Made by a program: the position numbers and the translations under genes. Source: Cryobacterium arcticum (GTDB taxonomy: Bacteria > Actinomycetota > Actinomycetes > Actinomycetales > Microbacteriaceae). From it: a DNA stretch of 64,000 nucleotides. Positions 32,720 to 60,590 of the stretch are shown piece by piece. The notes below the pieces were generated by a model, which saw nothing but the letters and a program-made list of their open reading frames with translations, did not search any database and had not been told where the DNA came from. The stretch is from contig NZ_CP016282.1 in assembly GCF_001679725.1 (NCBI RefSeq), positions 868,001 to 932,000 on the forward strand. The letters are read 5' to 3'. How positions within the stretch are numbered: the first letter of the stretch is position 1; every line of letters begins with the position of its first letter.

Positions 32720-33109
32720 ATGACACTCATTCCCGGCATCGACTTCGACGCAGAACTCCGGCTGGTTGACGCGCACTGGACGCCACGAGTCGTGGGTAAG
32801 GTGAACGACCAGTACATCAAGGTCGCGAAGCTCCTCGGGGAACTGGTCTGGCACGCCCACGACGCGGAGGACGAGATGTTCATCGTCATCTCGGGCCGTC
32901 TTCGAATCCAGTTGCCAGACCACCAGGAGGTTGTGCTCACCCCCGGGCAGTTCTTCGTAGTACCCCGAGGCGTGCAGCACAACCCGGTCGCAGACGAGGA
33001 AGTGCACATCGTCCTCATCGAGACAGTGACCACCGCCCACACCGGGGACGTGATCGTAGAAGGCACCGTGCCAGTCGAACAGCAGCTCGGGAAGATGGCA
33101 GCTCAGTAA
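32720..33109 (+). CDS. Small cupin-domain protein
   Basis: The 129-residue single-domain cupin has WHAHDAEDEMFIVISGRLRI (metal motif 1 with His, His, Glu) and PGQFFVVPRGVQHNPVA (motif 2 with His). It is probably a metal-binding isomerase, dioxygenase or sensor. It is divergent from the VOC gene, so the two could be expressed together from one intergenic region. Confidence 0.82.
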   Translation: MTLIPGIDFDAELRLVDAHWTPRVVGKVNDQYIKVAKLLGELVWHAHDAEDEMFIVISGRLRIQLPDHQEVVLTPGQFFVVPRGVQHNPVADEEVHIVLIETVTTAHTGDVIVEGTVPVEQQLGKMAAQ

Positions 33110-33601
33110 CCTGAACCCGAAGGCTTCGGTTCCTACGTAGTGGCTGTGCAGGGTGTGCGGGCCGGGCTGCGTTTTCCGGACTGTTCCGGTTCCTCGCCGC
33201 TCCCGGTGCACATGCCGAGTGACTCCTCACCGACCAGCAGCGGGCGGCTGTCGACGGGGTACACGCGGAGAACGTCGAGACGGCGGCCGGGACCGCGATC
33301 GCCGGAACGATGGATGCGCATGAGCGGCGGGCCGCACCTCGCGCGCCGAGGCCGCCGAGGCGCCGACCAATCAGAGAGGGCCGCAGCACGGTCGGGGAGC
33401 GTGGATCAGGCGGCTGTGCTCGAGCTGCAACCTCGCGAGTACGGCGCGCAGGCTGACGCGGGCGGCACTTCCGACCAGCCAACCGATCAGCTGCGGGCCC
33501 TCGCGGCTGGAGCCTGCGTTGTCTGTCAGATCGAGTTGCTCCTGCCGTAGCGTCATGTGGTCTGCTGGAAGCACATCCTGTCCCAATCCGAGAGGTTTGC
33601 C
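33110..33601. other. Gene-free stretch between cupin and MerR genes
   Basis: No convincing gene is found in these 492 bp. Several frames are open but look like GC-rich background. One minus-strand stretch (33133-33321) reads protein-like (LRVYPVDSRPLLVGEESLGM) without a plausible start or domain, so it may be the remnant of a decayed gene. A promoter for the MerR gene must lie near the right end. Confidence 0.4.
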
Positions 33602-34498
33602 ATGCATCCGTTCCCCACCCCGCCCCGGGAGGTCCTGATCGGCGACGCCGCTGCGTTTGTGGGCATCACGCCCCGGGCGATCCGCCACTACCACCAGGTC
33701 GGCGTGTTGCCCGAGCGCGAGCGGGGCGGGGATGGGCGCCGCCGGTACGGCCACGCGGAGATCATCCGGCTGCTCTGGATCCGCCGCATGGCCGACGCCG
33801 GGATCGCCCTCGACGACATCCGCGACGCGTTCGCCGGCCCCGCACCGAGCGGCGCCGACGGCGAGGACGAGATCGCAGGCGTCCTCGCGCGACTAGAGGA
33901 CACCCTCGCCGCGCAGGAGGCCGAGCTGCAGCGAAAGCGGGCCTCGGTGCAGCGCATGCGGACCCTCGGCAGCCGACTAGGACTGCTCGACGATCTCGTC
34001 TCCGGCCGCCTCGAGGGCGCGCCCGAGGGCGCGCTGCGCCAGGACGACCTGGACGTGCTGCTGGTCACCGAACGAATCTTCGGTCCGCTCGGCGCCGTCA
34101 TGCAGGCGGGCCGCTTCCTCGCTCTGGCCCTCGATCCCGGGCTGCGCGCCGAGTCCGACCGCGTCGACGCCGCCGAGGAGGCGCTCGATGACACGGTCGC
34201 CGTCGACGACCCCCGGGTGGCGCAGGCAGCGGCCGAGCGGCACGCCTTCGAGATCGCGCTGATGCGCGTCATCGAAGAGTCCGGTCAGCTGGAGGAGGAT
34301 GACGCGATCTTCAACGCCTGGGACGAGCTGCACCCGCCCGAGGACGCCGACGCGGCGCCCGACCCCGATCCTGTAGAGGGCTCACGCGCGAGGAGTGCGG
34401 CGGAGATCATCCGGAGCATGCCCTACGATTTCTCCCCGGCCCGCCTGCGCAGCATGGAGCTGGCGGTTCAACTCGGCGCGGCGGCGGCCGACAAGTAA
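33602..34498 (+). CDS. MerR-family transcriptional regulator
   Basis: The 298-residue protein has a MerR winged-helix domain at residues about 10-80 (LIGDAAAFVGITPRAIRHYHQVGVLPERERG...RRYGHAEIIRLLWIRRMADAGIALDDI), a coiled-coil dimer helix (90-130) and a long ligand-type domain. Its last codons and stop (GACAAGTAAGG) coincide with the first half-site and spacer of the repeat junction at 34486-34577. The gene therefore ends at the edge of the cassette array. Confidence 0.85.
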   Translation: MHPFPTPPREVLIGDAAAFVGITPRAIRHYHQVGVLPERERGGDGRRRYGHAEIIRLLWIRRMADAGIALDDIRDAFAGPAPSGADGEDEIAGVLARLEDTLAAQEAELQRKRASVQRMRTLGSRLGLLDDLVSGRLEGAPEGALRQDDLDVLLVTERIFGPLGAVMQAGRFLALALDPGLRAESDRVDAAEEALDDTVAVDDPRVAQAAAERHAFEIALMRVIEESGQLEEDDAIFNAWDELHPPEDADAAPDPDPVEGSRARSAAEIIRSMPYDFSPARLRSMELAVQLGAAAADK

Positions 34499-34577
34499 GG
34501 GGCCGCTCGTCACGTTGATACGCGACTTCCTGCGTCTCGTCTCCCACGGGATTCGACACACTGATGTTACGAGACAC
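34486..34577 (+). repeat. Recombination-site-like junction J1 (A tail + B module)
   Basis: An A half-site remnant GGCCGACA lies in the last codons of the MerR gene, followed by a 39-bp spacer with GCTCGTCACG and CTTCCTG. The B core at 34533-34560 has left half CGTCTCGTCTCCC, centre AC and right half GGGATTCGACACA. The B tail is CTGATGTTACGAGACAC. This is the left end of the array. Confidence 0.75.
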
Positions 34578-34602
34578 GTCCGACTGACAGGGGCGCTTCG
34601 CT

Positions 34603-34821
34603 ATGCGACAAGATATGGGAATGGATCGCGCGTCAAACCACCTAATCGCAGAGCTTGAGGAACCAGCGGGCACGCGCACTCGACTCCTACTTCGTCGGGC
34701 GTGGGCGCTGGTTCGCGCAGCATTGGGTGACGTCGAGATTGTCAAGATCGATCTCACTGTCTTGTATCCCACGGGATATGAGGCAAAGAGGTTAAGAGGT
34801 AACACAGCCATCATCAGCTAA
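34603..34821 (+). CDS. Possible small protein in the first cassette
   Basis: The 72-residue open frame lies between J1 and J2. Its first 48 residues (for example LLLRRAWALVRAALGDVEIVKID) look protein-like, while the last 24 are encoded by the J2 repeat itself. No family or ribosome-binding site is clear. It may be a real cassette gene or chance. Confidence 0.3.
   Translation: MRQDMGMDRASNHLIAELEEPAGTRTRLLLRRAWALVRAALGDVEIVKIDLTVLYPTGYEAKRLRGNTAIIS
34758..34802 (+). repeat. Junction J2 (degenerate B module)
   Basis: The core at 34758-34785 has left half TGTCTTGTATCCC, centre AC and right half GGGATATGAGGCA. The tail AAGAGGTTAAGAGGTAA has drifted from the GAGACA half-site. No A module is recognisable upstream, so this site may be inactive. 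Confidence 0.6.
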
Positions 34822-34855
34822 CCGGTGACCGGCGCAGACATGCTCCCCGGTTCGC

Positions 34856-35305
34856 TCAGCCCTCTGCGCGTGACGGAGGGGAGACGATGATTATGATCCC
34901 GTTTCCGCAGGACTTGGGGATCGGTATGGACACCGTCGCGCCTTCCACGGGACTCCCACCGCCGAGCGAGATCTCGTCTCCCATCCGGTACTCCTCGCCT
35001 GCAAATGTGAGTGTCGTGCCGTCCCAAGTCGTGAGCTTGTCGGGAAATACAGGAATGTCGCCATCGTCAAACCGAAGGCAGTTGTCGACGAATGCCAGAG
35101 TCCCGACTTTCAACCCGGCCATGCCTACCCAGTCCTCTGGAAGGGGGTATGTGACGAGCCCCGTCGGCGCTGGCGGTGTGGGCTCCGTGACGGTGCAGGC
35201 CGTAAGAAGCGGCACAAGTACCAGGATCAGACCGACCAGCGTTCGGCGCTCACGCTTGTTTGAACGCAGCGTTGATGCGGACACCGAAACGACAACCAAT
35301 GACAT
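34856..35305 (-). CDS. Small predicted lipoprotein (cassette gene)
   Basis: The 149-residue protein has a basic N-region (SNKRERR), a hydrophobic helix and lipobox LTAC near residue 37, then a beta-rich domain with two cysteines. GGAGG lies upstream of the ATG at 35305. It is in segment J2-J3 and faces away from the next gene. No family is recognised. Confidence 0.65.
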   Translation of the reverse strand: MSLVVVSVSASTLRSNKRERRTLVGLILVLVPLLTACTVTEPTPPAPTGLVTYPLPEDWVGMAGLKVGTLAFVDNCLRFDDGDIPVFPDKLTTWDGTTLTFAGEEYRMGDEISLGGGSPVEGATVSIPIPKSCGNGIIIIVSPPSRAEG

Positions 35306-35541
35306 GCGACCTCCGTCAACGCTGAGAAGTGCGAGAACCGTCACCCTATCTGGCATGCGGTGATCTGGTCATCGTGCAGTAGCGCTGGCTCAAGCCCGGC
35401 CGGTCGCGGTGGCAGTGTGACGAACCTGCGGCACGAGCCATCTGTCGGGTCACTTACTAGTGGCGAGATCCTGGCGCAGCAGAGCAGGTAGGTTCAGGAC
35501 ATGAGCGCGCGTGGAGGCATCGTACTGAGGGGCAGGCGCGG

Positions 35542-35943
35542 GTGAACGACACTGAATCTTCCCGAAGCATTGGTTGGGCCCGCATTTTTCAGGTGCTCTG
35601 GATTGTTGGCTACCTGATTGGTACCAGCACGCACACCGTCGATCTCCTGCTGGGTGGCACAAACGCGTATTCGTCCTTCCCCGATCCTCTTCGCCTTTTC
35701 TGGATCTTGCTGACGTTTTTGGATCCGCTTGTCGTCGTTCTCATATTGCTCCAGAAACAGGTTGGCGTCGTTCTCGGTGTTGTCGTCATCGTCGTCGACG
35801 TTGGCGTGAATGCCATGGTCTACGCCACGATCGGAGGCCTATCACTCTTTGGCGTACTCTGTCAGACGCTGTTCGGCATCCTGATACTCATCACGGCCCG
35901 ACCACTATCCGCCTGGTTTGCCGCCGTCAATCGATCAAAATGA
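35542..35943 (+). CDS. Four-helix membrane protein (cassette gene)
   Basis: The 133-residue protein has four hydrophobic segments (near 15-35, 50-68, 72-95, 100-120). It uses a GTG start. Its stop codon is 17 bp before the A core of J3, a tight fit between gene and junction. Composition is less GC-rich than flanking core genes. No family is recognised. Confidence 0.65.
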   Translation: MNDTESSRSIGWARIFQVLWIVGYLIGTSTHTVDLLLGGTNAYSSFPDPLRLFWILLTFLDPLVVVLILLQKQVGVVLGVVVIVVDVGVNAMVYATIGGLSLFGVLCQTLFGILILITARPLSAWFAAVNRSK

Positions 35944-35960
35944 CTCACGGGCATAGCGGG

Positions 35961-36090
35961 TGTCTCGTATCCCCAGGGATTCGAGACAGGTCTAGATGCG
36001 CGACAAGTTACGTGCCCGCTCGTCACGGTAACAGGCGGCTTCCTGGCTCTCATATCCCATGGCTTTCGAGACGTGCACCTTACGCGACAC
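35961..36090 (+). repeat. Junction J3 (complete A and B modules)
   Basis: A core 35961-35988: left TGTCTCGTATCCC, centre CA, right GGGATTCGAGACA, with tail GGTCTAGATGCGCGACA. A 40-bp spacer carries GCTCGTCACG and GGCTTCCTG, as in J1. B core 36046-36073: left GCTCTCATATCCC, centre AT, right GGCTTTCGAGACG, with tail TGCACCTTACGCGACAC. The two centres are 85 bp apart. Confidence 0.82.
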
Positions 36091-36172
36091 GTGTGCCTTC
36101 TTCAGGGGTCTGCAGAGTCGTTGTTTCGGTCACGCTGGACGGCCAAGATGGACGCAACAGAGAGTGGGGACT

Positions 36173-36817
36173 ATGCGATCCAGCACACCGATACCGGGAA
36201 ACCCGTGGCCTCACGACATGTTGCTCACGATCGAAGATCGTCCTAATGCCCTCCTGGAACTGCTCTGGATCCGGGAAGCGCATGCGCTGCGACTTCAAGG
36301 TGAAGACCTCCCTCCGCTCCTGTTGGACACGCCGACAACCGTTCAGCATGCTGCATTGAGTACCGATACTCGCGACGAGTGGGCCAGCGCCTGGCCCCGC
36401 ATCTGGCATGCTGTCGTGGCGTACGCGGGTCCAGACCTTGATTCGCGACTTTTCGTTGAGCTTCAAGCCACTGCAATCGGTTCGACCGAACGTGCCAGTC
36501 TTCTGCACCGAATTGTTGGACCCAGCTGGCGCGACGATTTCGGAGACAGCGCGTTCGAGAACGACTCGTACCGCGCCTGGTCACAAGTTGGGATGGATGC
36601 TCAACTAGCAGCAATGGCGACGCGAATCGAAGACTCTCCGGAGCGGCGCGATCTACCGCCGCTGATCTCCGCGTGGCATGCGGGCCTGACGAAGATCGTG
36701 ACCATCCCTTGTTTGGGTGAGTTCACACGCAGGATCAGCGAGAACGCGCTTCTCATGACTGCTGGCACGCGTGCGAACAGTGACAGCTACCGGCGCGCAT
36801 TGAACACTTTCATCTGA
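36173..36817 (+). CDS. Hypothetical cytoplasmic protein (cassette gene)
   Basis: The 214-residue protein has no signal or membrane segment. It reads as a helical domain with the ending AGLTKIVTIPCLGEFTRRISENALLMTAGTRANSDSYRRALNTF, a pattern I associate with conserved actinobacterial hypotheticals. GTGGGGA precedes the ATG at 36173. The gene ends 14 bp before the A half-site of J4. Confidence 0.68.
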   Translation: MRSSTPIPGNPWPHDMLLTIEDRPNALLELLWIREAHALRLQGEDLPPLLLDTPTTVQHAALSTDTRDEWASAWPRIWHAVVAYAGPDLDSRLFVELQATAIGSTERASLLHRIVGPSWRDDFGDSAFENDSYRAWSQVGMDAQLAAMATRIEDSPERRDLPPLISAWHAGLTKIVTIPCLGEFTRRISENALLMTAGTRANSDSYRRALNTFI

Positions 36818-36831
36818 CTATCCTCAGCGCA

Positions 36832-36928
36832 GATGCGAGACATCTCACGCCTCGCCTCCGGCAACTCCCTTAAGCACACTCTGTGTCTCGCATGCCGGGT
36901 GTTTCGACACACTGAGGTGGAGAGACAC
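36832..36928 (+). repeat. Junction J4 (A tail + B module)
   Basis: The A half-site GATGCGAGACA (36832-36842) is present but its 28-bp core is replaced by the end of the preceding gene. After a 41-bp spacer comes the B core 36884-36911: left TGTCTCGCATGCC, centre GG, right GTGTTTCGACACA, with tail CTGAGGTGGAGAGACAC. Confidence 0.75.
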
Positions 36929-37126
36929 CGTGCTGCATGCATGACGTCGAGGGATCGCCGGAGATCAGACCTCTCACATTGACGTCACCTACGGCAGGGC
37001 ACCGATCTCAACGTGAGATGTGTGTCTATCAGGACGCGAACACACAATGGTTTCGGAGATGCCCTGCTCACGGAGGAAGCGGGCCACGTTGCAACTGGAT
37101 TCGCGGCAGGCCAGCCGCAGTCGGTG

Positions 37127-37594
37127 TTACACCCGCTCCCGCAGGTCGTATGCCATTGCTGTGAACTGGGGGCGTTCGGGATCCACGATCTCCCGGAAGC
37201 CTGCTCGGCGGTAAGTACTGACAGCGGGTGTATTGCCAGCGATCACGGCAAGTCGCACTTCTTCGGCTCCGAGCTGGAGCGCCTCATCCAGTGCCAAAGC
37301 GATGAGGGTGTGACCCAGGCCTCGACCTCTAAAGTGCGGATCGATAATGACTCTTCCGAGGCGAGCTGATTTTTCCTGCAAAGTGAGATCGAAATGCCCC
37401 CAGGCGGGTTGGTCGTGTTCTTCCGCGACCATCCACGCGGTCAGTCCTGGTCGGGTGGCTATCTCCCCGAATTGTTCTATGGTCGGGGGCCAGGCGATGC
37501 TTGGCCCGGCGAAAAGGTAGAGCGCTTCGGCATCGGGAAGCCACCGAAGCAGACGGGAGTAGTCGTCAGTAATAGGGGCGCGGGTCTGGGCCAT
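37127..37594 (-). CDS. GNAT-family N-acetyltransferase (cassette gene)
   Basis: The 155-residue enzyme has the acetyl-CoA loop DPHFRGRGLGHTLIALAL (RGRGLG) near residue 90 and NTPAVSTYRRAGF near 125. It is complete. The ATG at 37594 follows AAGGA. Small acetyltransferases that detoxify or modify small molecules are common cargo of gene cassettes elsewhere, but the acceptor here is unknown. Confidence 0.8.
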   Translation of the reverse strand: MAQTRAPITDDYSRLLRWLPDAEALYLFAGPSIAWPPTIEQFGEIATRPGLTAWMVAEEHDQPAWGHFDLTLQEKSARLGRVIIDPHFRGRGLGHTLIALALDEALQLGAEEVRLAVIAGNTPAVSTYRRAGFREIVDPERPQFTAMAYDLRERV

Positions 37595-37913
37595 TCCTTG
37601 ACAGTAGTGGTGGACATCACTCGTCACCATCTTGTTGTGGATGCCGATCACCCGACCCGGAATTTAGAGAGAAGTGTTGCTGCGTCATGGCCAATTCTCA
37701 ATTCCACCGGGTCGTTTTGTTCCGCTAGGCACGATCCGACGCCTCAACCCATGGCCGCCCCAATTCCTAGTTCGTCCGGGCAATCGACGGGGGACGAGGC
37801 ACCAGCAGCCGCCAAGTTTCGTAGCCATTGCCGACTTGGGTACCGCCGTGGTCACCATGCGTGGGAAGGAACTGCCGGCTGACCGCCGGTTCACTCTTCA
37901 TCGCCGCCTGTAG
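37595..37913. other. Gene-free stretch before J5
   Basis: These 319 bp lie upstream of the GNAT gene and should hold its promoter. I see no convincing gene. A very weak A-like tail (ATGCGTGGGAA, 37857-37867) may be the decayed partner of J5. Confidence 0.4.
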
Positions 37914-37958
37914 AGTCTCACAACCAGTGGGTTTCGACACACTGAGGTTGCGAGACAT
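37914..37958 (+). repeat. Junction J5 (B module)
   Basis: The B core 37914-37941 has left half AGTCTCACAACCA, centre GT, right half GGGTTTCGACACA, followed by the well-kept tail CTGAGGTTGCGAGACAT. The A module is not clearly recognisable. Confidence 0.75.
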
Positions 37959-38051
37959 GAGTGAAGTGCCTTATGAGCGAAATAGTGGTGAGGGACTCGC
38001 CCCGTTCCATGGCAAGCCGATGAACCACGCTGCGGCAGGGCTTTTGCCCGC

Positions 38052-38345
38052 TCAGTCGCGCAGCGGCCGACCGTACGGATAATCCACCCATTCGCCCGGC
38101 GCATCATCACCAGCCACTGCCATCGCACCATGCTTGACCGCCCGATAGTCAGCTGGAAAACGCGCGCCCTGCAAAACCGCATCGAGGTTGACGTCCTGTT
38201 GGATCTCGCCATCCTTGAAACGGACGTCGTATGAATAGTATCTACGACCAAAAATTAGTGAACGGCGCTTCCTGGTAACAAGGGTTACCCTAACCGCAAC
38301 CGGCAGAGTTTTTCCCACTTCAGGTCCGTTCGTTAGCCCAACCAA
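38052..38345 (-). CDS. Hypothetical protein (cassette gene)
   Basis: The 97-residue frame is basic at the start (LVTRKRRSLIFGRRYYSYDV) and reads as a compact beta-rich protein. The first possible start is TTG. The frame continues open upstream, and a second frame starts at a nearby ATG (about 38389) that also looks coding for about 26 codons, so a frameshift is possible. No family is recognised. Confidence 0.45.
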   Translation of the reverse strand: MVGLTNGPEVGKTLPVAVRVTLVTRKRRSLIFGRRYYSYDVRFKDGEIQQDVNLDAVLQGARFPADYRAVKHGAMAVAGDDAPGEWVDYPYGRPLRD

Positions 38346-38475
38346 TGCCCACGCTCCAGTCCTGTTGTATGTCCTGAAGATAGCGTGTCGCGATGGCCAT
38401 CTTCGGCGTCTCGTAGCTGCCTGCTTGGGAAATCACGTTGGCGTTCGCCAAGCGGGATAACCATTTGAGCCTGGG

Positions 38476-38534
38476 TGTCTCGTATCCCTACGGATGCGAG
38501 ACAGGTCAGCATGCGACACGAGAGTTACGAGACG
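38476..38534 (+). repeat. Junction J6 (A core followed directly by a B-type tail)
   Basis: Core 38476-38503: left TGTCTCGTATCCC, centre TA, right CGGATGCGAGACA. A shortened A tail GGTCAGCATGCGACA is followed at once by CGAGAGTTACGAGACG, which is like the B tail. The spacer and B core are missing, so this junction looks like a fusion product of A and B. Confidence 0.72.
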
Positions 38535-38736
38535 CGAGGAAGTCGTTCCGAGGTGTCGATACCATCTCGAGTAGTCGCAGCTGTAGTTGATGTGGCCCGA
38601 GACTATCGGCTGCCCGAAGTGGGGCGGCGCGCGAGCCAGCGGGAACTGGGAGATGCTGGCGCTTAGCTCCGCCGCGCCCTACGGTCGCAGTGGGGGCTAA
38701 GTCGGCCGTTGAAACCTACTTAGAGAACGGACGATC

Positions 38737-39210
38737 ATGTCTTTCCGGACTAGAAGGCTCACCTTGGCCGCATTTATGCTGCTCGCGCTTAGCGCCTGCT
38801 CGTCTTCCGCTGGTGCTGACGAGACGTCGTCGGGGACGGGGGGAACTATCGATATGGCGGTCTCGGACACATGCATTGCGGGGTCGGACTCTCAGTGCGT
38901 GTTGGTCGACGGCGACAGTGTTCTGCTTCCCTCCACATTCCGAGAAGCCGGCGTTAAGAGTTCCAGTGTTGCCGAGGGCGGGCAGAGCGCGGTTGACGTA
39001 ACGTTCACCGAGGACGGTGCGAAGGTGTGGCAGGAGCTCACGGAAGAGGCCGTCAGGGCTGGGGACTCGGCGCGCCTACTCATCAAGGTCGGTGGCGAGG
39101 TGCAAACCGCGGTCCGCGTTATGGAAGCCATGAAAGGCGATCAGGTGCAAATCGCTCTAGGGACCGACGAGAGCGCCCAAGACCTCGTCGACCTAATTCA
39201 GGGAGACTAG
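38737..39210 (+). CDS. Lipoprotein with SecDF-P1-head-like domain (cassette gene)
   Basis: The 157-residue protein has a lipoprotein signal with lipobox LSAC near residue 21, then a domain whose end (VDVTFTEDGAKVWQELTEEAV...VMEAMKGDQVQIAL) resembles the P1-head subdomain of SecDF, which also occurs on its own in actinobacterial lipoproteins. The role is unknown. It lies 24 bp before the A remnant of J7. Confidence 0.68.
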   Translation: MSFRTRRLTLAAFMLLALSACSSSAGADETSSGTGGTIDMAVSDTCIAGSDSQCVLVDGDSVLLPSTFREAGVKSSSVAEGGQSAVDVTFTEDGAKVWQELTEEAVRAGDSARLLIKVGGEVQTAVRVMEAMKGDQVQIALGTDESAQDLVDLIQGD

Positions 39211-39233
39211 GCCAGCGGAGACCGCCCCATGCC

Positions 39234-39326
39234 GATGCGATAACCCTGCGGCACGATCGAAACGGAATGCTGCTTCCGAGGTGTCTCGAAACCCATGGGT
39301 TTCGAGGCATCTCGGTTGCGAGACAC
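39234..39326 (+). repeat. Junction J7 (A tail remnant + B module)
   Basis: The A remnant GATGCGATAAC (39234-39244) is followed by a 37-bp spacer containing GCTTCC. B core 39282-39309: left TGTCTCGAAACCC, centre AT, right GGGTTTCGAGGCA, tail TCTCGGTTGCGAGACAC. This B core is one of the most symmetrical in the array. Confidence 0.78.
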
Positions 39327-39520
39327 CGGACACGAAGTGGACACGCTCCGCTGCGGTCAGATTCGAAGGGGTCCAGCTGGGCCTACGCCTGCGTGGGCTT
39401 TCCAGGGTCCTTGCCACTGTCGCCAGAACCGACCCAGGGGCCGCCAGCATGGCCGGGGGCTTCGGGCTATATGGCTGACTATGCGGACCTAAACCCTCGA
39501 CGAACTTACAAACATGACCA

Positions 39521-40537
39521 CTAGCGGGTGTGGGCGATGATCGCTTCGGCGATAGCCACCGTGTCGCTGGTCGACGCGACCTGGTAGGCCGACTGGCCGA
39601 GTGAGAAGATCACGACGCAGAACGGTGTCACGTCGGAGCACATCTGCACGGCGTGCTCACCCTCGACCGCGCCCTTCAGCGCAATCGTCGGCAGGGCCTG
39701 GGTGTCTGGTGTGGAGACCATCGTGTCGACGAGTCCGGCCAGGTCGTAACCGACCGTGACAGAAGTACCCCAAACCCCGGCGCCGATCAAGTCTGCCGGG
39801 ACGTCGGCATCCACATCACACTGGAATACCCCGGCCCGCTGCGCCACGTAGTTCTCAAAGCAGGTCAAGCCGTTTGGTGGGGACCGGACTTCGTATTCGA
39901 GCGAGTCGACGCCGAGAGCCGTGGCGATGCCCTCCGACCCCACCGCGCGGGTGCAGTCCGATTCGTGTTCGACCAGATCGACCGTCGGCCAGACCAACTG
40001 GCCGGGCTGAGCATCCGTCAGAGCGGTGAAAACGGATGCTGCGAGCGGCTGCATCTGCGCCAGGATCGCGTCGGGCGTCAGCCCGGAGAAATACCAACCG
40101 TCGCGTTGGATCCAGTTCGTGCTCAACACGATTTCGACCCAGGCATCGCCGACCGGCGCGCTGATGAAGCAGCCGGTGTCGTAGCCGCATCCGGTCGCCG
40201 CGTCAATGCCTCCGATGGTCATCGCAGTGTCGGAGGGGCCGTCGCCGAACGATAAGGCGTCGTCGCCCACCGTGAAGGGCGCCCAGGAGTCGGCGCCGCC
40301 GGCAACGACCTTGACGCTGACGTAAGCCCAGTCGGAATCGACGGGGTCGTGCAACGGTTCGGTGACCGCGGGGCCGACCCGCCAGGAGCAGGACAGACCG
40401 CCCAGGGCTGGCACGACGTAGTCGATCAGGTTAAACGCTGGCTGGATCGCGGCAACCGGGGTCGGCGCGGTTCCGTCGGCGGTGACGAAACCGGGTGCCA
40501 CGTCATCAAGGGTGGCAATGTCGTCGCAGGTGTACAC
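39521..40537 (-). CDS. Cysteine-rich secreted-type protein, probably 5'-truncated (cassette gene)
   Basis: The 338-residue frame has two similar halves, each with paired cysteines (YTCDDIATLDDV...GGLSCSW and SDCTRAVGSEGI...NGLTCFENY). This resembles surface lipoproteins such as the one at 48276-48923. However, it begins without a signal peptide. In-frame codons continue upstream to a stop near 40620 with no ATG, GTG or TTG, so the signal-coding part seems lost. It may be a pseudogene. Confidence 0.55.
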   Translation of the reverse strand: MYTCDDIATLDDVAPGFVTADGTAPTPVAAIQPAFNLIDYVVPALGGLSCSWRVGPAVTEPLHDPVDSDWAYVSVKVVAGGADSWAPFTVGDDALSFGDGPSDTAMTIGGIDAATGCGYDTGCFISAPVGDAWVEIVLSTNWIQRDGWYFSGLTPDAILAQMQPLAASVFTALTDAQPGQLVWPTVDLVEHESDCTRAVGSEGIATALGVDSLEYEVRSPPNGLTCFENYVAQRAGVFQCDVDADVPADLIGAGVWGTSVTVGYDLAGLVDTMVSTPDTQALPTIALKGAVEGEHAVQMCSDVTPFCVVIFSLGQSAYQVASTSDTVAIAEAIIAHTR

Positions 40538-40999
40538 GCTCGCTGAAGGTGTATCTAGGGTCTCTAGCCGACGACGCTGAAGATGCCTAGTTGCCTGGCG
40601 AAGGTGCGTAGTCGATCCGCATCAGTTATCCGCAGTTGCATTGGCGCTGAAAGAACGGACCGGACCATCTGATCGTCTTCTTCTGTTCGGTCGGACCGAA
40701 AGAACAACACGGCTCCTCTTGCGACAGTAGTGGGCAGTGTAGGCAAGCTCCGCCATCTATCTGGTCCCTGCTGCTCGCGTTCTGCCCCCAATTCGGGCAG
40801 CCCAGATTGTCCACGGCCGGCCACGAACGGCAACCGTCCCAACCGTCCACACCTGTATCGGATCACAGTCCTGCGCAGCGCACCGACCCCAAGCGAAAGT
40901 TCGAGAGCCCGGCTGCACTGGCTATTTGGTTGGAATCGCGCAGCTCGGGGCTTGACCCTCGGACCCAAAGCAATTTGTTCGACGCCTGTTGGGCTTGCG
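40538..40999. other. Gene-free stretch upstream of J8
   Basis: These 462 bp hold no convincing gene. A minus-strand frame with a Cys cluster (ACLHCPLLSQEEPCC) is open, but has no start signal or domain support. The area may contain the decayed 5' end of the gene at 39521-40537. Confidence 0.4.
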
Positions 41000-41128
41000 T
41001 GTCTCGAAACACTACCAATGCGAGACAGATCAGGATACGAGACAAGTCGTATGCCACTCGTCGATCGGAGAGGACAACTCCTACGTCTCGTATCCCATGG
41101 GTTATGGGTCGTCTCGGTAATGAGACTC
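41000..41128 (+). repeat. Junction J8 (complete A and B modules)
   Basis: A core 41000-41027: left TGTCTCGAAACAC, centre TA, right CCAATGCGAGACA, tail GATCAGGATACGAGACA. Spacer of 39 bp with GCCACTCGTC. B core 41084-41111: left CGTCTCGTATCCC, centre AT, right GGGTTATGGGTCG (right half drifted), tail TCTCGGTAATGAGACTC. Centres are 84 bp apart. Confidence 0.82.
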
Positions 41129-41185
41129 ATCAACTTTTGCGAGCTTCATCGCTTGGTCGCTCGCAAAGTGCGTGCCGCGGGAGTT

Positions 41186-41572
41186 TTAGGAGTTCCTAGC
41201 GGGCCCTGTTTCTAGATTTGTTCGAGGACGGAATGCCAATGACGCTCCGTATAGAGCGATGACCGTGCCTACGACCCAAACCGTGGTCGAGGGCCAATTG
41301 CTGTTCGGCACCGTTTGCGGTCCGATCGCGTCCTCTGGGCTGTCGTAGGTGCAATTCACTCCTAGGGGCAGAAGCGTCCGTTCGCCTGTAACTCGGGTGC
41401 CTTCGTTGAAGGGGCCGCCAGATTCAGGAAGGTGCATGGAACGCGTGCACTGGATGGCCGGAACTTCCTTGCCGTCAAGAGTTATCCCGGTCAAGAATGC
41501 GCTTAGGGCCAGCAAGCCGAATACCGTGAGTATAAAGAGCCCGAGAAGTCGACGAAAGCGCGAACTCGTCAT
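41186..41572 (-). CDS. Two-helix membrane protein (cassette gene)
   Basis: The 128-residue protein has a hydrophobic helix near residues 10-28 and a second near 95-112, with a loop between that carries two cysteines. The topology fits a small membrane protein with an extracytoplasmic loop. It follows the next gene on the same strand, and both lie in segment J8-J9. Confidence 0.62.
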   Translation of the reverse strand: MTSSRFRRLLGLFILTVFGLLALSAFLTGITLDGKEVPAIQCTRSMHLPESGGPFNEGTRVTGERTLLPLGVNCTYDSPEDAIGPQTVPNSNWPSTTVWVVGTVIALYGASLAFRPRTNLETGPARNS

Positions 41573-41642
41573 GGCGCAACCTTACTGGCCTCAATTGCCA
41601 CAGCGTTGTTTCTGACTCGATACCCTTGAAACTCAAGACACA

Positions 41643-42329
41643 TTAGTTCCGAGACGCTGTCGATTGTGAACTCGATTCGTCGCCGGAACCGTCTCCCGAC
41701 AAGTGAGACCCAAAGTGCAGCAGTAGGGACCAGTATTCTTCGTCGCTTACCGGTCTGAGCCGGAGCCAGCCACGCTTGTAAGGGGTCAATGGGATGCTGA
41801 CTATTTGCCCGCCCTTCTGGAGGCCGACCACGATCGCCCTGTCGATGGTGACGGCATGACGTACTTCGTCCTGTTCGTACGAGTCGATACTCGACCAGGG
41901 GATCCTCGCCACACATTGCGGTCGATTCCAGTACCACCGCCACAATTCAAACTTCTCGCCGGTATCCACGAAGGCAAGGAACGAGCCATCGCGAGACAAA
42001 TACGACTTTAGGCGCACGCCGGTGAGGTCTTGCAGCGCCTCCTTGAGTCGATCTGAGGAGTAGATGGCCGTGGGGACCGAACCGGAACGGATGAGCTCGG
42101 TTAACAGTCGCCGACCCGGGCGGTAGAAGGCCCACAAAAGTATGACGGCGAGGACTGCTCCACCGACCAGGCCGCCCAAAACCGCCGGCAGCCCAGATCC
42201 CGCTGCCGACGGTGAGTGGCCCAAGATCGCCGTGATGACCTGCAGCAAGAGCACGGTGATGAGAGCTGCGAGTAGCCCCCTAACCGCCCACGATCGTCTG
42301 CGAGCGGGGATTCGCGCGGTGTCACCCAT
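41643..42329 (-). CDS. Membrane-anchored hypothetical protein (cassette gene)
   Basis: The 228-residue protein has two helices (near 15-37 and 48-70) and a cytoplasmic C-terminal domain (DGSFLAFVDTGEKFELWRWYWNRP...) of a beta-rich type that resembles bacterial PH-like modules, though this is tentative. I use the ATG at 42329. The 70-bp gap to the next gene suggests co-transcription. Confidence 0.62.
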   Translation of the reverse strand: MGDTARIPARRRSWAVRGLLAALITVLLLQVITAILGHSPSAAGSGLPAVLGGLVGGAVLAVILLWAFYRPGRRLLTELIRSGSVPTAIYSSDRLKEALQDLTGVRLKSYLSRDGSFLAFVDTGEKFELWRWYWNRPQCVARIPWSSIDSYEQDEVRHAVTIDRAIVVGLQKGGQIVSIPLTPYKRGWLRLRPVSDEEYWSLLLHFGSHLSGDGSGDESSSQSTASRN

Positions 42330-42355
42330 TTGCTCACAGTAGCCTTCTGACCAAC

Positions 42356-42456
42356 GACCGAGAGCGTGACGCTCCACTCGGCTTAGACCTCAACGTCCGG
42401 TGGGCAAAGAACCTCTCGTTGCCCATGGGTCATGAGGCAGCGAGGTTGTGAGACAC
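42356..42456 (+). repeat. Junction J9 (weak A tail + B module)
   Basis: A weak A remnant GACCGAGAGCG is 45 bp before the B core. B core 42412-42439: left CCTCTCGTTGCCC, centre AT, right GGGTCATGAGGCA, tail GCGAGGTTGTGAGACAC. Confidence 0.7.
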
Positions 42457-42910
42457 GACCTTCGGATGGCGAGTGGCGTTGCGCCCCGGACGGCCCCGAA
42501 TCGATTCGCGGGCCTATTCCTACTCAACTGCGCAGGACGGTTCAGAACGGTTGCTTTTTGGTTCCGCCCATCAGGTATTGGCTGTCGCGCCCCATAAGTA
42601 CTCACCGCGCGAAACGCTTGTCGCCTGTCGCTGTTTGCGCGAACAGGCCGCCCCGCGGCCGGACGAGGCCGCCGAAACCTCTTCAAAGTTGGCCGTTCAA
42701 ACCGAGGGGTTTGCTCGATGATCGATCTAAATGGTTTGACCGTGCGTGTCGCGCGGGTGCTAACTTGAGCAAAGGGTCACCGCAGGGTGACCGCGGCGAA
42801 GCAGTTCGGCCGCAGGAGAATCTCGCGTAGGTTTCGACCATCTCTTCACGTTTCGGAGCCAAATCGCGGATGCCCCGCGACGGCCGCACGCGTGTAGAGG
42901 GGGCATCAGC
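42457..42910. other. Gene-free stretch after J9
   Basis: These 454 bp lie between J9 and the secreted repeat protein. No gene is convincing. A TTGACC near 42735 followed by TAACTT about 20 bp later could be the promoter of the next gene. The remainder is unexplained. Confidence 0.35.
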
Positions 42911-43738
42911 GTGAAGAAAGTCATTGCATTAACAACCGCGATCGGAGTCGCGCTCGTCGTGTTGACCGGGGTCGCCCCGGCGTCTGCTGAAGCGACGAGA
43001 GTCGACACCTCGACTTCGACAGTGGCACCATTGGCCGATCCAACGCAGACATTGTGGCCGCTCTACAAGACCGTGTACGACGGAACGATCTACGAGCTGG
43101 TGACGGAGGCGGGCGTGGAAACACCGGTGCCGCTGTCGTTCGAGAAGTGGCGGGACGTGTACAAGTTCAGCAGCTTCGAGAACACCGCAACCGATTTCGT
43201 GAAGTATCCGTGGTCGCCGACGGTATACGCGGTGACCTTCTGGCCGGGTGGGGAAAGTGCCTGGCAGTGGACGCCGATCACGTTCGCGCAGTGGCAGACG
43301 GCAGGCTTCCCGTCGGCGCGCATCGCCGGGTGGATCAAGGGAAGCTACTACTACCAGTGGGGCTCGTCCCCGGAGGTTCTCGTTGAGGGTGCTGACGGCA
43401 TCAACCACAAGCTCAGCTACACGGAATGGGAAGCGTCGGGGTTCCGAGCGTTCCAATGGAGGTCCGCCGAGGGTTTCTTCAAGCTCACTTGGTCGAACGA
43501 TATCGTGCGAATGACGAATATTGGGTTTGGCCAGGGTGGACCGATCGACTATGCAGAATGGGCCGCGGAAGGTTTCCCCACGCCGCAGGTAGGCCCGAGG
43601 CTCCCCAACGATATGTTTCTCATCTTCCCCGACAGTTCGACCGTGCATTACACCGCACCCGGCATATATCGCCCCGTGACGTTCGACGAGTGGACGGCCG
43701 CGGGACGACCAACTCCAGAACTTGTCAAGGGCCACTAG
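42911..43738 (+). CDS. Secreted protein of tandem aromatic repeats (cassette gene)
   Basis: The 275-residue protein has a Sec signal peptide (KKVIALTTAIGVALVVLTGVAPASA, cleaved near residue 27). The mature part holds about five repeats of some 45 residues, each ending in a phrase like ITFAQWQTAGFPSA, LSYTEWEASGFRAF, IDYAEWAAEGFPTP or VTFDEWTAAGRPTP. Aromatic surface repeats suggest carbohydrate or cell-wall binding, which is an inference. No enzymatic domain is attached. Confidence 0.72.
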   Translation: MKKVIALTTAIGVALVVLTGVAPASAEATRVDTSTSTVAPLADPTQTLWPLYKTVYDGTIYELVTEAGVETPVPLSFEKWRDVYKFSSFENTATDFVKYPWSPTVYAVTFWPGGESAWQWTPITFAQWQTAGFPSARIAGWIKGSYYYQWGSSPEVLVEGADGINHKLSYTEWEASGFRAFQWRSAEGFFKLTWSNDIVRMTNIGFGQGGPIDYAEWAAEGFPTPQVGPRLPNDMFLIFPDSSTVHYTAPGIYRPVTFDEWTAAGRPTPELVKGH

Positions 43739-43822
43739 GACCTGGCCGCTGACAACAACGTCCCGGTGCGTAACAGCTGACTAGAGCGACCGGATTCCCT
43801 TCACGGAGAAAATTCGTGGCGC

Positions 43823-43949
43823 TGTCTCGTGACCCTCGGGATTCGAGACAGGTGAAGATACGAGACAAGCCACCCGCCTCTCAGGGCGTGAAGGGATGAG
43901 CCGGCGTCTCGTATCGCATGGGTTTCGGGACACCCGGGTTCTGAGACAC
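43823..43949 (+). repeat. Junction J10 (complete A and B modules)
   Basis: A core 43823-43850: left TGTCTCGTGACCC, centre TC, right GGGATTCGAGACA, tail GGTGAAGATACGAGACA. Spacer of 37 bp. B core 43905-43932: left CGTCTCGTATCGC, centre AT, right GGGTTTCGGGACA, tail CCCGGGTTCTGAGACAC. Centres are 82 bp apart. Confidence 0.82.
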
Positions 43950-44036
43950 CGTAGGCGGCGGTGAAGCGCAACCACACAGGGCGCTGCTTCTTGAACACCC
44001 TCCTTGGCCGGATCTCCCTGCAGCGGAACTGAGCGC

Positions 44037-44606
44037 CTATGAAGTCGCGGGGGGTCTCAAGCCGTCGAGCACGACGGTGAGCAAGGAGCGGGCACGTTCG
44101 TCCCAATCGGACTCGTCAAGGCGCGTCAGGAATCCGATCAGTGTGATGACGTCCTGGGCATCGACCTCCGGGCGGATGACCTTGGACTTGCGACCTGCCT
44201 CGAGCAGCAACGTGATCGCCTCCCCAATGGGACCCAGGCTGTGAGCACTGAGGTCCTTCCAGATAGAGGCTTCGACGGCCGCGAAAACCCCGCGCTTGAT
44301 TCGGGCATAGTCCGCGACGCGGTCGAACCACAGAGCGAGGGCGACATCCGCTGCCTCGGTTTCGAGGAGTATCGGCGCCAGGGCGACGAGTTCATCGACG
44401 TCATGCCGGTAGACCTCTACCAGCAGGTCGGCACGGGTCGGAAAGTGGCGGTAGAGCGTGCCCTGACCCACGCCAGCCTTTTGGGCAATCGCGTTTAAGC
44501 GCAGATCATCCCCACCTGGCGGGGCTGTAGCGATTGCTTCACGCGCCGCTTCAACGATGCGGGCACGGTTGTTAACGGCATCAGCACGGGGCATTGAAGG
44601 AGTCAT
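44037..44606 (-). CDS. TetR-family repressor (cassette gene)
   Basis: The 189-residue protein has a TetR DNA-binding domain at about residues 15-55 (LRLNAIAQKAGVGQGTLYRHFPTRADLLVEVYRHDV) and a C-terminal ligand domain. It is divergent from the SDR gene, and two copies of GGACACGTGTCC lie between them. It is the likely repressor of both genes. Confidence 0.87.
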   Translation of the reverse strand: MTPSMPRADAVNNRARIVEAAREAIATAPPGGDDLRLNAIAQKAGVGQGTLYRHFPTRADLLVEVYRHDVDELVALAPILLETEAADVALALWFDRVADYARIKRGVFAAVEASIWKDLSAHSLGPIGEAITLLLEAGRKSKVIRPEVDAQDVITLIGFLTRLDESDWDERARSLLTVVLDGLRPPATS

Positions 44607-44626
44607 TGGGTCTCACGAAATATCGA

Positions 44627-44655
44627 TTGCCTAAACGGACACGTGTCCGTATAGT
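44627..44655 (+). promoter_or_regulatory. Promoter of the cassette SDR gene
   Basis: TTGCCT (44627-44632) and TATAGT (44650-44655) are spaced by 17 bp. The spacer contains operator copy 1, so a bound repressor would exclude RNA polymerase. Confidence 0.65.
44637..44648. promoter_or_regulatory. TetR operator copy 1
   Basis: GGACACGTGTCC is a perfect 12-bp palindrome located between the -35 and -10 of the SDR promoter. Confidence 0.78.
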
Positions 44656-44665
44656 GATGTCAAGC

Positions 44666-44677
44666 GGACACGTGTCC
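44666..44677. promoter_or_regulatory. TetR operator copy 2
   Basis: A second identical GGACACGTGTCC lies 29 bp away, just downstream of the expected transcription start of the SDR gene. Confidence 0.78.
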
Positions 44678-44708
44678 AATCTAGTCACTAGAACGACGGG
44701 AAATACCA

Positions 44709-45449
44709 ATGAACGGCATCACCGACAAGGTCGTCGCCATCACGGGAGCTAGCAGCGGTATAGGCGAAGCGACCGCGCGCTTGCTGGCGGAACGGGGCGC
44801 GATGGTGGCTCTCGGAGCACGGCGCACCGGCCGACTCGACGACATCGTGGCGACGATCGTCGCCACGGGTGGACGCGCCATCGCATGCGAAGTCGATGTC
44901 ACCTCACCGTCCGCAGTCGCCAATTTTGTCGACCAGACCGTGCGATCGTTTGGCCGCCTGGATGTATTTATCGGCAACGCCGGAGTGTCGTCACTATCCC
45001 CGATGGCCGAACTGGATGTCGATGGATGGTCGTCCATGATCGATGTGAATCTGCATGGCGTGCTGAACGGTATCGCTGCTGCACTGCCGGTGTTCCAAAC
45101 ACAGGGCCGCGGACATTTTGTGACCACCGTATCGACGTCAGGAATCAAGATCGTGCCCACGCAGGCTGTCTATGCTGCGACAAAGAACGCCGTGCGAACG
45201 CTGCTGGAAGGACTCCGGCAGGAGTCGACTGATGGTGTCATGCGCACCACGTCGATCTCGCCCGGCTATGTTCAGACAGAGCTCGTTGACTCCATCGCGG
45301 ACCCACGCATCCGAGAGCAGGCAAAGACATCGATGGCAGCCTTGGGTATCCCAGCGGAGGCCGTCGCCAGGGCGATCGCCTTCGCAATCGAGCAGCCGGA
45401 CGACGTCGAGATCGGCGACCTCACCATCAGGCCAACCCGTCAAGGCTGA
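44709..45449 (+). CDS. Short-chain dehydrogenase/reductase (cassette gene)
   Basis: The 246-residue classical SDR has the cofactor loop GASSGIGEAT (near residue 12), NAG (GNAGVSS), the catalytic Ser in STSG, and YAATK near 155. It belongs with NADP-dependent oxidoreductases that reduce small carbonyls. It should be induced when the ligand of the divergent TetR is present. This is the most complete regulated unit in the array. Confidence 0.88.
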   Translation: MNGITDKVVAITGASSGIGEATARLLAERGAMVALGARRTGRLDDIVATIVATGGRAIACEVDVTSPSAVANFVDQTVRSFGRLDVFIGNAGVSSLSPMAELDVDGWSSMIDVNLHGVLNGIAAALPVFQTQGRGHFVTTVSTSGIKIVPTQAVYAATKNAVRTLLEGLRQESTDGVMRTTSISPGYVQTELVDSIADPRIREQAKTSMAALGIPAEAVARAIAFAIEQPDDVEIGDLTIRPTRQG

Positions 45450-45473
45450 TCTGTCAATCGACACCCCGCTTCC

Positions 45474-45621
45474 AGTCTCGTAACCCTACCGATATGAGAC
45501 GCCTCGTCGCCTTAATCTGCACTTTTCCTGATATTGGTGATTAATGGGTTCCTGAGAGTCACATAACTACGTCGCGTATCCCTGTGACCGAATTGCGGTG
45601 CGCATCGTTAGTTATGAGACA
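45474..45621 (+). repeat. Junction J11, in front of the recombinase gene
   Basis: A core 45474-45501: left AGTCTCGTAACCC, centre TA, right CCGATATGAGACG, with no clear A tail. A degenerate B core lies at 45570-45597 (left CGTCGCGTATCCC), 96 bp away by centres, and a final half-site TTATGAGACA at 45612-45621 is 14 bp before the recombinase start. The spacing differs from J3, J8 and J10, so this copy may be specialised for regulation. Confidence 0.68.
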
Positions 45622-45634
45622 GCGAAGGAGCGTT

Positions 45635-46264
45635 GTGACGAAGCTGATCGGTTACGCGAGAATATCGACTAGAAACGGTGCCACGGATGGACAGCGGGCC
45701 GAGCTCTTGGCGGCCGGCGTCCGGCGCGATGACCTCTATGTCGATGAAGGGAGTTCCGGAGCTCGAGCACCTCGTCCTCAGCTTGATGTCGCCGTCACGG
45801 CGCTTGAGCCTGGTGACACATTCGTGATCGTGTCTTTGGACCGGCTGGGTAAATCGACGCAGAACGTGCTCGCGTTCGCCGAGGGCCTGAGCGGCCGCGG
45901 GGTTGAGCTTCGGGTCCTCAATTTCTGCGGCGGCGATGTCGACACGGCGACACCGCCGGGACCCATGCTGTTCACCACCATGGCTGCTCTGGGGCAGATG
46001 GAGCACGAAATCAAGCGTGAGCGCGTGCTCGACTCGATCGATAGGCGCCGTAAGGCCGGCAAGAACCTTGGTGGCCGGCCACGAAGAATCACGAACCGAC
46101 AGATCCGCAACGCCAATCGACTCATGGAAGCCGGAGAGCCGACGGCACTGGTCGTGCGCGACTTCGGTATGTCTCGCGCCACGTTCTACCGCCGCGCCCG
46201 TGCCCTGGGATTGATGCCAGATCAATCCGGCGACGAGAAACCGGAAATCGACGACGCCGTCTGA
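45635..46264 (+). CDS. Serine recombinase, resolvase/invertase type
   Basis: The 209-residue protein has the resolvase catalytic domain with LIGYARISTRNG (nucleophile Ser11), FVIVSLDRLGKS near 70 and MLFTTMAALGQMEHEIKRER near 110-130 leading into the long E-helix. The C-terminal helix-turn-helix follows GRPRRITNRQIRNA...GMSRATFYRRARALGL. Size and layout match Tn3-type resolvases and Hin-type invertases, not large integrases. I chose the GTG at 45635, which has AAGGAG; an upstream GTG at 45584 lies in J11. It should bind the J repeats. Confidence 0.9.
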   Translation: MTKLIGYARISTRNGATDGQRAELLAAGVRRDDLYVDEGSSGARAPRPQLDVAVTALEPGDTFVIVSLDRLGKSTQNVLAFAEGLSGRGVELRVLNFCGGDVDTATPPGPMLFTTMAALGQMEHEIKRERVLDSIDRRRKAGKNLGGRPRRITNRQIRNANRLMEAGEPTALVVRDFGMSRATFYRRARALGLMPDQSGDEKPEIDDAV

Positions 46265-46296
46265 CGTGCACTGCGTGGCGTGGCGTGTGAAAAGTG

Positions 46297-46368
46297 TGCC
46301 CCCAGGCAGATTCGAACTGCCGCCCCTGCCTCCGGAGGGCAGTGCTCTATCCCCTGAGCTATGGGGGC
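46297..46368 (-). tRNA. tRNA-Arg (anticodon CCG)
   Basis: On the minus strand a full cloverleaf is formed: acceptor GCCCCCA with TGGGGGC, D stem GCTC/GAGC, anticodon stem CTGCC/GGCAG with loop CTCCGGA, and T stem GGCAG/CTGCC with loop TTCGAAT. The loop gives anticodon CCG. CCA is not encoded. Its 3' end faces the recombinase gene 33 bp away. Confidence 0.95.
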
Positions 46369-46459
46369 CCAGGAACCTCTAGGTTAGCATCCCTGGGCTG
46401 CGGCGTTGGCCCCTCACGTGGGCAGGGAAGTCGAGGCGCACCGGGCGCGTGACGGCGGC

Positions 46460-60580: not shown

Positions 60581-60590
60581 CTCATTCCGC

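Follow-up and report, generated by a model that had tools for sequence, protein, structure and literature searches.

The stretch analysed here, called the window, comprises 64,000 nucleotides of Cryobacterium arcticum, an environmental actinobacterium of the Microbacteriaceae (NZ_CP016282.1, positions 868,001 to 932,000), and lies in the 4.17 Mb contig of a 4.35 Mb genome held in three contigs. Its subject is an array of short gene segments, or cassettes, separated by dyad sites and bordered by a MerR-family gene, whose 3' end is at 34498, and by the gene for a small serine recombinase, which ends at 46264 (Table 1). A preliminary description, made from the sequence, had read this locus as an integron-like array apparently run by the recombinase and bounded by eleven copies of one composite repeat. 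The repeats themselves are borne out: the dyad pattern gives 27 matches on both strands of the window, whereas 100 dinucleotide shuffles averaged 0.54 matches and never exceeded 3. However, the count has to be revised, because the window holds 15 scored dyads, which consist of 10 sites of a type B, 4 sites of a type A, and the dyad of recombinase site I at 45474. Neither the two site classes, with AT or TA at their centres, nor the res-like site beside the gene formed part of that description.

The array and its dyad sites

Each composite site consists of three half-sites. In type B, an L-R dyad is followed by a repeat of R 16 bp on, with a consensus over 155 copies of.GTCTCgTATCCC AT GGGtTacGAGgCActtaGGTTaCGAGACAc; in type A, R is repeated 17 bp on. 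Three B sites of the window (34758, 36046 and 36884) have a third half-site too weak for automatic typing and were assigned by repeat alignment. A precedes B by 82-85 bp at 35961/36046, 41000/41084 and 43823/43905, and the fourth A site, at 38476, stands without a scored B after it. The centre is AT in 5 of the 10 B sites and TA in 2 of the 4 A sites, the remaining centres being AC, AC, GG, GT and TT in B and CA and TC in A. Given these numbers, the window array is partly decayed, and with off-consensus centres some cassettes may no longer be able to move.

Table 1. Coordinates of features at the array locus, numbered within the window
Feature	Position	Strand	Basis or copies elsewhere
MerR-family regulator gene, 3' end is distal array border	33557..34498	+	Pfam MerR_1
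B site 1, centre AC, with third half-site	34533..34579	+	Dyad pattern, repeat alignment
B site 2, centre AC, weak third half-site	34758..34804	+	Dyad pattern, repeat alignment
Cassette gene, 133 aa, membrane protein (by eye)	35542..35943	+	35467-35987 copy in G330 contig 33, 94%
A site 1, centre CA, 85 bp ahead of B site 3	35961..36007	+	Dyad pattern, profile
B site 3, centre AT, weak third half-site	36046..36092	+	Repeat alignment, profile
Cassette open reading frame, no assigned function, start maybe further in	36059..36817	+	Cassette in G333 88%, G199 77%
B site 4, centre GG, weak third half-site	36884..36930	+	Dyad pattern, repeat alignment
Cassette gene, GNAT acetyltransferase	37127..37651	-	Pfam 5.2e-13
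B site 5, centre GT	37914..37960	+	Dyad pattern, profile
A site 2, centre TA; degenerate B possible near 38553 (by eye)	38476..38522	+	
Cassette gene, lipoprotein-like (by eye), SecDF P1-head domain	38737..39210	+	Pfam 2.6e-9
B site 6, centre AT	39282..39328	+	Dyad pattern, profile
Cassette gene, 338 aa, no Pfam family	39521..40537	-	
A site 3, centre TA	41000..41046	+	Dyad pattern, profile
B site 7, centre AT	41084..41130	+	Profile
Cassette gene, 128 aa, no assigned function	41186..41572	-	Cassette 41092-41628 in G279, 87%
B site 8, centre TT	41613..41659	+	Profile
Cassette gene, 244 aa, no Pfam family over cut-off	41643..42377	-	Cassette in G333, 89%
B site 9, centre AT	42412..42458	+	Dyad pattern, profile
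Cassette gene, 275 aa, no Pfam family, probably exported (by eye)	42911..43738	+	
A site 4, centre TC	43823..43869	+	Dyad pattern, profile
B site 10, centre AT	43905..43951	+	Dyad pattern, profile
Cassette gene, TetR regulator	44037..44606	-	Pfam TetR_N 4.8e-10
Cassette gene, 246 aa, short-chain dehydrogenase (by eye)	44709..45449	+	In 110-protein pooled scan
Res site I, centre TA, attI-like border of array and recombinase	45474..45501	.	Profile; upstream alignment
Res accessory region, two direct-repeat half-sites (~17 bp) and one inverted	45556..45622	.	38-row alignment
Small serine recombinase	45635..46264 (open reading frame listed from 45584)	+	Pfam Resolvase 7.4e-29, HTH_7 1.1e-5
tRNA-Arg (CCG), just past recombinase	46296..46368	-	Structured-RNA scan

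The same architecture is found in relatives, where the centres are better kept. A symmetrised profile built from the 15 window sites gave, at >=14 bits, 59 matches in 41 other loci (3 from the window's own genome) and 0 in reversed sequences; at >=13 bits, it gave 341 raw matches in 40 further relative loci and the window, with 2 in the reversed control. Over the sites typed with this profile, the centre is AT in 151 of 160 B sites and TA in 46 of 59 A sites. A centre-blind profile, in which the four central columns were zeroed, gives much the same picture (AT in 178/193 B, TA in 47/60 A). Furthermore, another dyad follows 73-93 bp after A in 39 of 47 cases, mostly at 83-85 bp, and its centre is AT in 35 of these 39. 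From what is generally known of serine recombinase chemistry, an AT overlap cannot pair with a TA overlap, and consequently the A and B classes should not cross.

Within the host genome, all 10 match rows of a dyad search that have 0-2 mismatches fall inside the array stretch. Rows with 3 mismatches are divided between this stretch (17/33) and the rest of the genome (16/33), and the backwards control yields 9 rows in total. Six of the 16 outside rows come from a single repeat near C1:3328 kb, and just one resembles a real site by eye, a lone dyad at C1:1401225-1401252 (L036:6226-6253) with 3 mismatches and centre TG that lies roughly 490 kb away from the array. On the smallest contig there are B-site model matches as well, at C3:35401-35435 and C3:22448-22487; one of these matches lies about 170 bp from a serine recombinase gene (C3:34685-35230, minus strand), whose product may share the site specificity of the array.

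Sharing of cassettes and points of exchange

An all-against-all comparison of the array regions of the window and other genomes (given here by their G numbers) reveals discrete shared units whose ends lie at dyads, although many other shared stretches among the matches listed end away from sites. Eight of the 11 between-site segments of the window have counterparts in other genomes of this set. One instance is window 36058-36896, for which G333 has an 88% match with each end 1.5 bp from a site centre, and G199, which belongs to another genus of the same family, carries one window cassette at 77%. The cassette at 39283-40545 has a 96% copy in G339 and partial copies in G349 (96%) and G326 (94%); no copy of the cassette with the gene at 42911..43738 was found in the regions compared. 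The neighbours of shared cassettes were conserved in 0 of 31 between-genome comparisons.

The points at which similarity switches were then located relative to the dyads. For pairs of B sites that share the downstream cassette alone (n=25), identity to the right of the centre is 0.86 against a baseline of 0.52, and to the left 0.53 against 0.57; for pairs that share the upstream cassette alone (n=9), it is 0.81 on the left (baseline 0.57) and 0.39 on the right (baseline 0.52), these identities being scored at variable columns and over pairs that are not all independent. If no site is used more than once, which leaves 20 and 9 pairs, the pooled breakpoints are +6 and -2 relative to the centre. 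For TA sites, eight rows share the left side, and three of the eight switch at the TA centre. The left sides of sites 12870 and 56134 of G333 are identical up to TA and different after it; G349 contig 32 7835 and G330 contig 33 5774 likewise switch at TA, their left halves showing a single difference; and G199 has the left side of site I (14928) a second time, at the internal site 11211. In addition, a 1.46 kb segment that adjoins site I in G279 contig 9 has a 97% copy in G349 contig 32 that ends at an A site. Judged by sequence, this pattern is the expected trace of an insertion or excision at the TA class. In the compared regions, homology breaks at site I.

The recombinase of G336 is the closest to that of the window (96% identical). 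On the left, the flank of G336 aligns with the window piecewise (91-97%) as far as 34488, and on the right the alignment resumes at 45531 (93-94%). The distance from the end of the MerR gene to the recombinase is 56 kb in G336 versus 11 kb in the window, and the common array stretch is 34532-34737 alone. G336 has 8 scored dyads in the 77 kb compared. Its recombinase end looks rearranged or decayed, since the match halts before site I and the few sites near the gene are reversed. G326 has the same flanks, in pieces at 85-96%, and a different array of about 18 kb. The left-flank homology stops at 34486-34488 in G326, G349, G313, G312 and G602, as it also does in G336. Thus, different cargo between like flanks, which the preliminary description had proposed to look for, is present in both G336 and G326, and the outcome that would have spoken against an exchangeable array, namely the same segments in the same order in related strains, was not encountered.

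The cargo is mixed. A set of 143 cassettes from 18 genomes, with a median length of 1009 bp, falls into 116 clusters, of which 19 occur in at least two genomes; the largest open reading frame opposes the site in 67 representatives and runs with it in 45. In a pooled Pfam scan of 110 cassette proteins, the commonest matches are GNAT acetyltransferases (6), alpha/beta hydrolases (5), and short-chain dehydrogenases (adh_short; 3), and 44 of the 58 families have a single match. An NCBIfam scan gave 322 families, of which the best 25 were listed. PADLOC, run on the same 110 proteins, revealed no defence theme: there were 26 families with, among the 25 listed, one member each, and 24 of those 25 were PDC-S02. 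A 1.43 kb element is present in three copies, 99.6-99.9% identical, in the G333 array (L077:16839-18267, L078:15277-16705 and L079:4250-5675), and it may be the Mutator-type transposase counted once in the pooled Pfam scan.

The recombinase, its res site and their distribution

Both PF00239 and PF02796 pass their cut-offs in the recombinase, which therefore combines a catalytic domain with a C-terminal helix-turn-helix, and its nearest relatives in the PDB are the Gin invertase and gamma-delta resolvase. In the recombinase alignment, the serine of the YARxS motif is aligned in 65 of 67 rows and the arginine in 64 of 67. The start at GTG 45635 is favoured over 45584, because the res accessory half-sites reach to about 45622 and AAGGAG precedes 45635. 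Upstream of homologous genes, a 38-row alignment keeps a res-like layout that consists of a 28-bp dyad, two direct-repeat half-sites, and one inverted half-site. A dyad of >=13 bits lies within 250 bp upstream of the recombinase in 29 of 38 loci, at -140 to -219, and none was found within 250 bp downstream in the 38 loci. In eight other regions, the recombinase side is homologous to the window from 45475 onward. Furthermore, the half-site of site I is the half-site of the array. This identity fits the view that the sites are of the serine-resolvase class.

Homologous recombinase loci (n=36) come from Cryobacterium (31, at <=84% identity), Glaciibacter (one, 70%) and Firmicutes (four, 36-38%). 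A tree of 67 recombinases contains a clade of nine, supported in 100/100, in which all members are array-linked and which is nested among plasmid and chromosomal resolvases; the other four of the 13 array-linked recombinases fall outside it. The array-linked label requires 4 changes on this tree versus 12.1 in shuffles. When an array locus is counted as at least three AT dyads together with a recombinase of >=68% identity (n=15), the array lies upstream of the recombinase in 12 of 15 loci, with most sites pointing at the gene. In G279 contig 41, a recombinase of 34% identity is closer to the array than is the 70% homologue. There, a TA dyad stands beyond the array and is followed by the 34%-identical recombinase (L103:14624-15526); it is possible that recombinases of a second lineage run arrays of this kind.

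The B-site model matches 52 of 57 genomes of the genus (E<=0.01), 50 of 398 sampled genomes of the family (E<=0.001), 16 of 396 of the order (E<=1e-4), and one of 346 of the phylum (E<=1e-5), which is the window's own genome. There are up to 83 site matches per genome, and the sites of G333 span about 55 kb. The recombinase is present in 32 of the 57 genus genomes (E<=1e-40). It occurs in 23 of 28 genus genomes with at least five site matches versus 9 of 29 others (Fisher p 1.5e-4, in which some dyads are counted on both strands and which, to the detriment of the argument, is uncorrected for kinship). Consequently, the concern that the repeats might be spread genome-wide with no link to the recombinase gene is not borne out, since the matches cluster in the array and track the recombinase across the 57 genomes. 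Outside the chromosomes, a plasmid of Cryobacterium sp. LW097 (NZ_CP021994.1, typed as mobilizable) carries three A-B composites, and five Micrococcaceae plasmid regions carry the recombinase plus one to four dyads (>=11 bits). On a plasmid of Arthrobacter alpinus A3 (L177:4534-25812), small accessory genes (GNAT, methyltransferase, VOC, and a putative immunity protein) lie round a 69% recombinase. Only two dyads were scored in this region, and it is possible that it represents a related array type with diverged sites. A search of viral contigs with one exact pattern gave no match, nor did a search of plasmids with the single cassette 39270-40560.

At the recombinase border of the window, a structured-RNA scan of 33000-47500 passed nothing but the tRNA-Arg; places next to tRNA genes are frequent spots of island integration. 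Elsewhere in the window, at 60589-61731, there is a direct repeat of about 0.95 kb with 87% identity and an offset of about 150-200 bp.

Interpretation and comparison with known systems

Taken together, these results suggest, with a probability that we put at about 0.8, that the locus is an integron-like cassette platform descended from a serine resolvase of plasmid type together with its res site. The comparison of sequences establishes two site classes, a mostly constant geometry, sharing without regard to neighbours, switches within B dyads, and three clean TA cases. In the mechanism proposed, the recombinase would bind GTCTCG-TATCCC half-sites as dimers at the 28-bp dyads, cut at the central 2 bp, and rejoin partners with a matching 2-bp overlap. 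At B sites, whose overlap is AT, cassettes of about 1 kb would be joined, excised, and shuffled. The TA sites, which are the A sites and res site I, would form a second, non-complementary class, at which cassettes enter or leave at the recombinase end, and direction probably depends on the third half-sites together with the res accessory sites. We infer that the adjacent recombinase carries out the exchange, that circular intermediates occur, that labour is divided between AT and TA, and what the roles of A versus B and of the third half-sites are. The preliminary view of an integron-like array run by a serine recombinase has thus largely held, in that site I has the same half-site and exchange at B sites maps near the dyad centre; the enzyme itself is the probable agent of this exchange.

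Several observations weigh against this interpretation. Single-pair estimates of the breakpoint scatter from -45 to +45. Five of the eight left-sharing TA rows lack a clean switch: in three, both sides are shared (two of the three represent a single pair read in either orientation), the G149/G245 row switches only past the right half, and in the G349/G326 row divergence precedes the site. The right half of TA sites, pooled over 6 pairs, is slightly above baseline (0.64 vs 0.51). An A-like dyad lies 60-95 bp ahead of only 50 of 165 B sites, and there is no polarity of sharing along the arrays (35/95 segments shared, p 0.84). In G349 contig 32 only the nearest sites point to the gene, the array of G279 contig 41 is on the opposite side of the gene, and G336 also deviates. 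Finally, G316 and G343 have 10 site matches and no recombinase homologue at E<=1e-40, and arrays without a close recombinase nearby exist, such as that of G602 contig 11.

Other explanations can be offered for the movement of the cassettes. Homologous recombination between the 45-bp repeats might be the main force that moves them, with the recombinase resolving dimers or cointegrates at its own res site only; the recombinase does belong to a family of plasmid and chromosome resolvases, many of which lie beside a single dyad, and the B centres of the window are partly decayed. However, such a process predicts spread breakpoints, whereas the left and right half-sites part close to the dyad centre whichever side is shared; in addition, the 2-bp centre is conserved in relatives, and a 45-bp repeat with a mean column identity of about 76% is a poor substrate for homologous recombination. 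We consider this explanation unlikely. It is also quite unlikely that another recombinase acting in trans, either a serine recombinase of 30-39% identity or one of Xer type, moves the cassettes while the adjacent gene is a passenger. Five further serine recombinases on the two small contigs of the same genome, the placement of the 34%-identical gene in G279 contig 41, and the arrays that lack a recombinase homologue would suit such an arrangement, but the recombinase has the array half-site in its own upstream site and stands at the array end in 12 of 15 loci.

If instead the tRNA-Arg gene marked a hot spot that gathers unrelated islands, of which the resolvase and the sites are leftovers, the position of this gene directly beside the recombinase would be accounted for, as would the 56 kb at the locus in G336 with so few scored dyads. 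Yet the cassettes have their ends at dyads and are present again on other contigs, and also in a second genus, which makes the hot-spot explanation very improbable. An integron of the classical kind, whose IntI is encoded elsewhere and whose sites are attC, would have the same layout of enzyme, adjoining border site, and row of cassettes. This candidate was rejected and is scarcely credible, because 0 of the 57 genus genomes have an IntI integrase over the TIGR02249 cut-off, and the weak tyrosine-recombinase matches seen in 57/57 of them occur equally in 14/14 controls.

Integrons are the familiar means by which bacteria collect single-gene cassettes and change their order. No description of a system like the present one was found among the papers listed in searches of open-access literature (bioRxiv and most subscription journals being outside this scope). 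A tentative proposal, to which we give somewhat less than even odds, is that the array represents a second, independently evolved class of integron, or 'serine integron', for which Actinobacteria would have recruited a plasmid resolvase and its res site as a chromosomal platform for gene capture. In it, a single enzyme would serve two non-complementary overlaps, with TA used to dock cassettes next to the recombinase and AT used to exchange them with one another, and acquisition would thereby be kept apart from reshuffling. If so, the evolution of cassette platforms would have occurred more than once and by different DNA chemistry, and a reservoir of little-characterised mobile genes in Micrococcales would be opened. 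Such a system would also provide a testable case of one enzyme with two overlap codes that control direction, with a possible use in ordered DNA assembly.

Several known systems have parts of this arrangement. Multi-site inversion systems (Min/Cin, the Rci shufflon) employ one recombinase and many sites to invert segments within one locus; here, in contrast, most sites share one orientation, and the genes between them are also present in other genomes. Plasmid-type resolvases (Tn3/gamma-delta, Sin, beta) have the same catalytic and helix-turn-helix domains and the same placement of site I and accessory half-sites upstream, and the direct-repeat accessory site resembles the res of Sin or beta. 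These enzymes resolve dimers between two identical sites, whereas the half-site here is repeated along an array of mobile cassettes. The pdif sites, which alternate in orientation, are bound by XerC and XerD through 11-bp arms around a 6-bp spacer and are moved by these Xer tyrosine recombinases (XerCD); pdif modules are not known to have a dedicated enzyme at the end of an array. An exchange point near a 2-bp centre argues against a site of the XerC/XerD type. The likeness lies in genes flanked by short recombination sites: the pdif/dif modules are presented as a feature of Acinetobacter, in which adaptive genes lie between such sites on plasmids and chromosomes (PMC6449649).

The closest likeness is to integrons. 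Both have an enzyme gene at one end, a dedicated site that adjoins it (site I at 45474, in a layout kept in 12/15 loci), and a large array of cassettes of about 1 kb that runs away from it, and in both the cassettes are mobile and bounded by recombination sites, the mobility here being judged from genome comparison. Clusters of integron sites without an integrase (CALIN) are likewise known, and IntegronFinder 2.0 reports no complete integron in Actinobacteria (PMC9024848). Judged by sequence, the array sites differ from attC sites, which vary in sequence and are conserved in hairpin structure, since they share a consensus over their 155 copies. Thus, where integrons use the tyrosine recombinase IntI and attC hairpins, the present array has a serine resolvase and dyads with conserved half-sites and a 2-bp centre, and it differs further in the two orientations of its largest open reading frames and in its two overlap classes.

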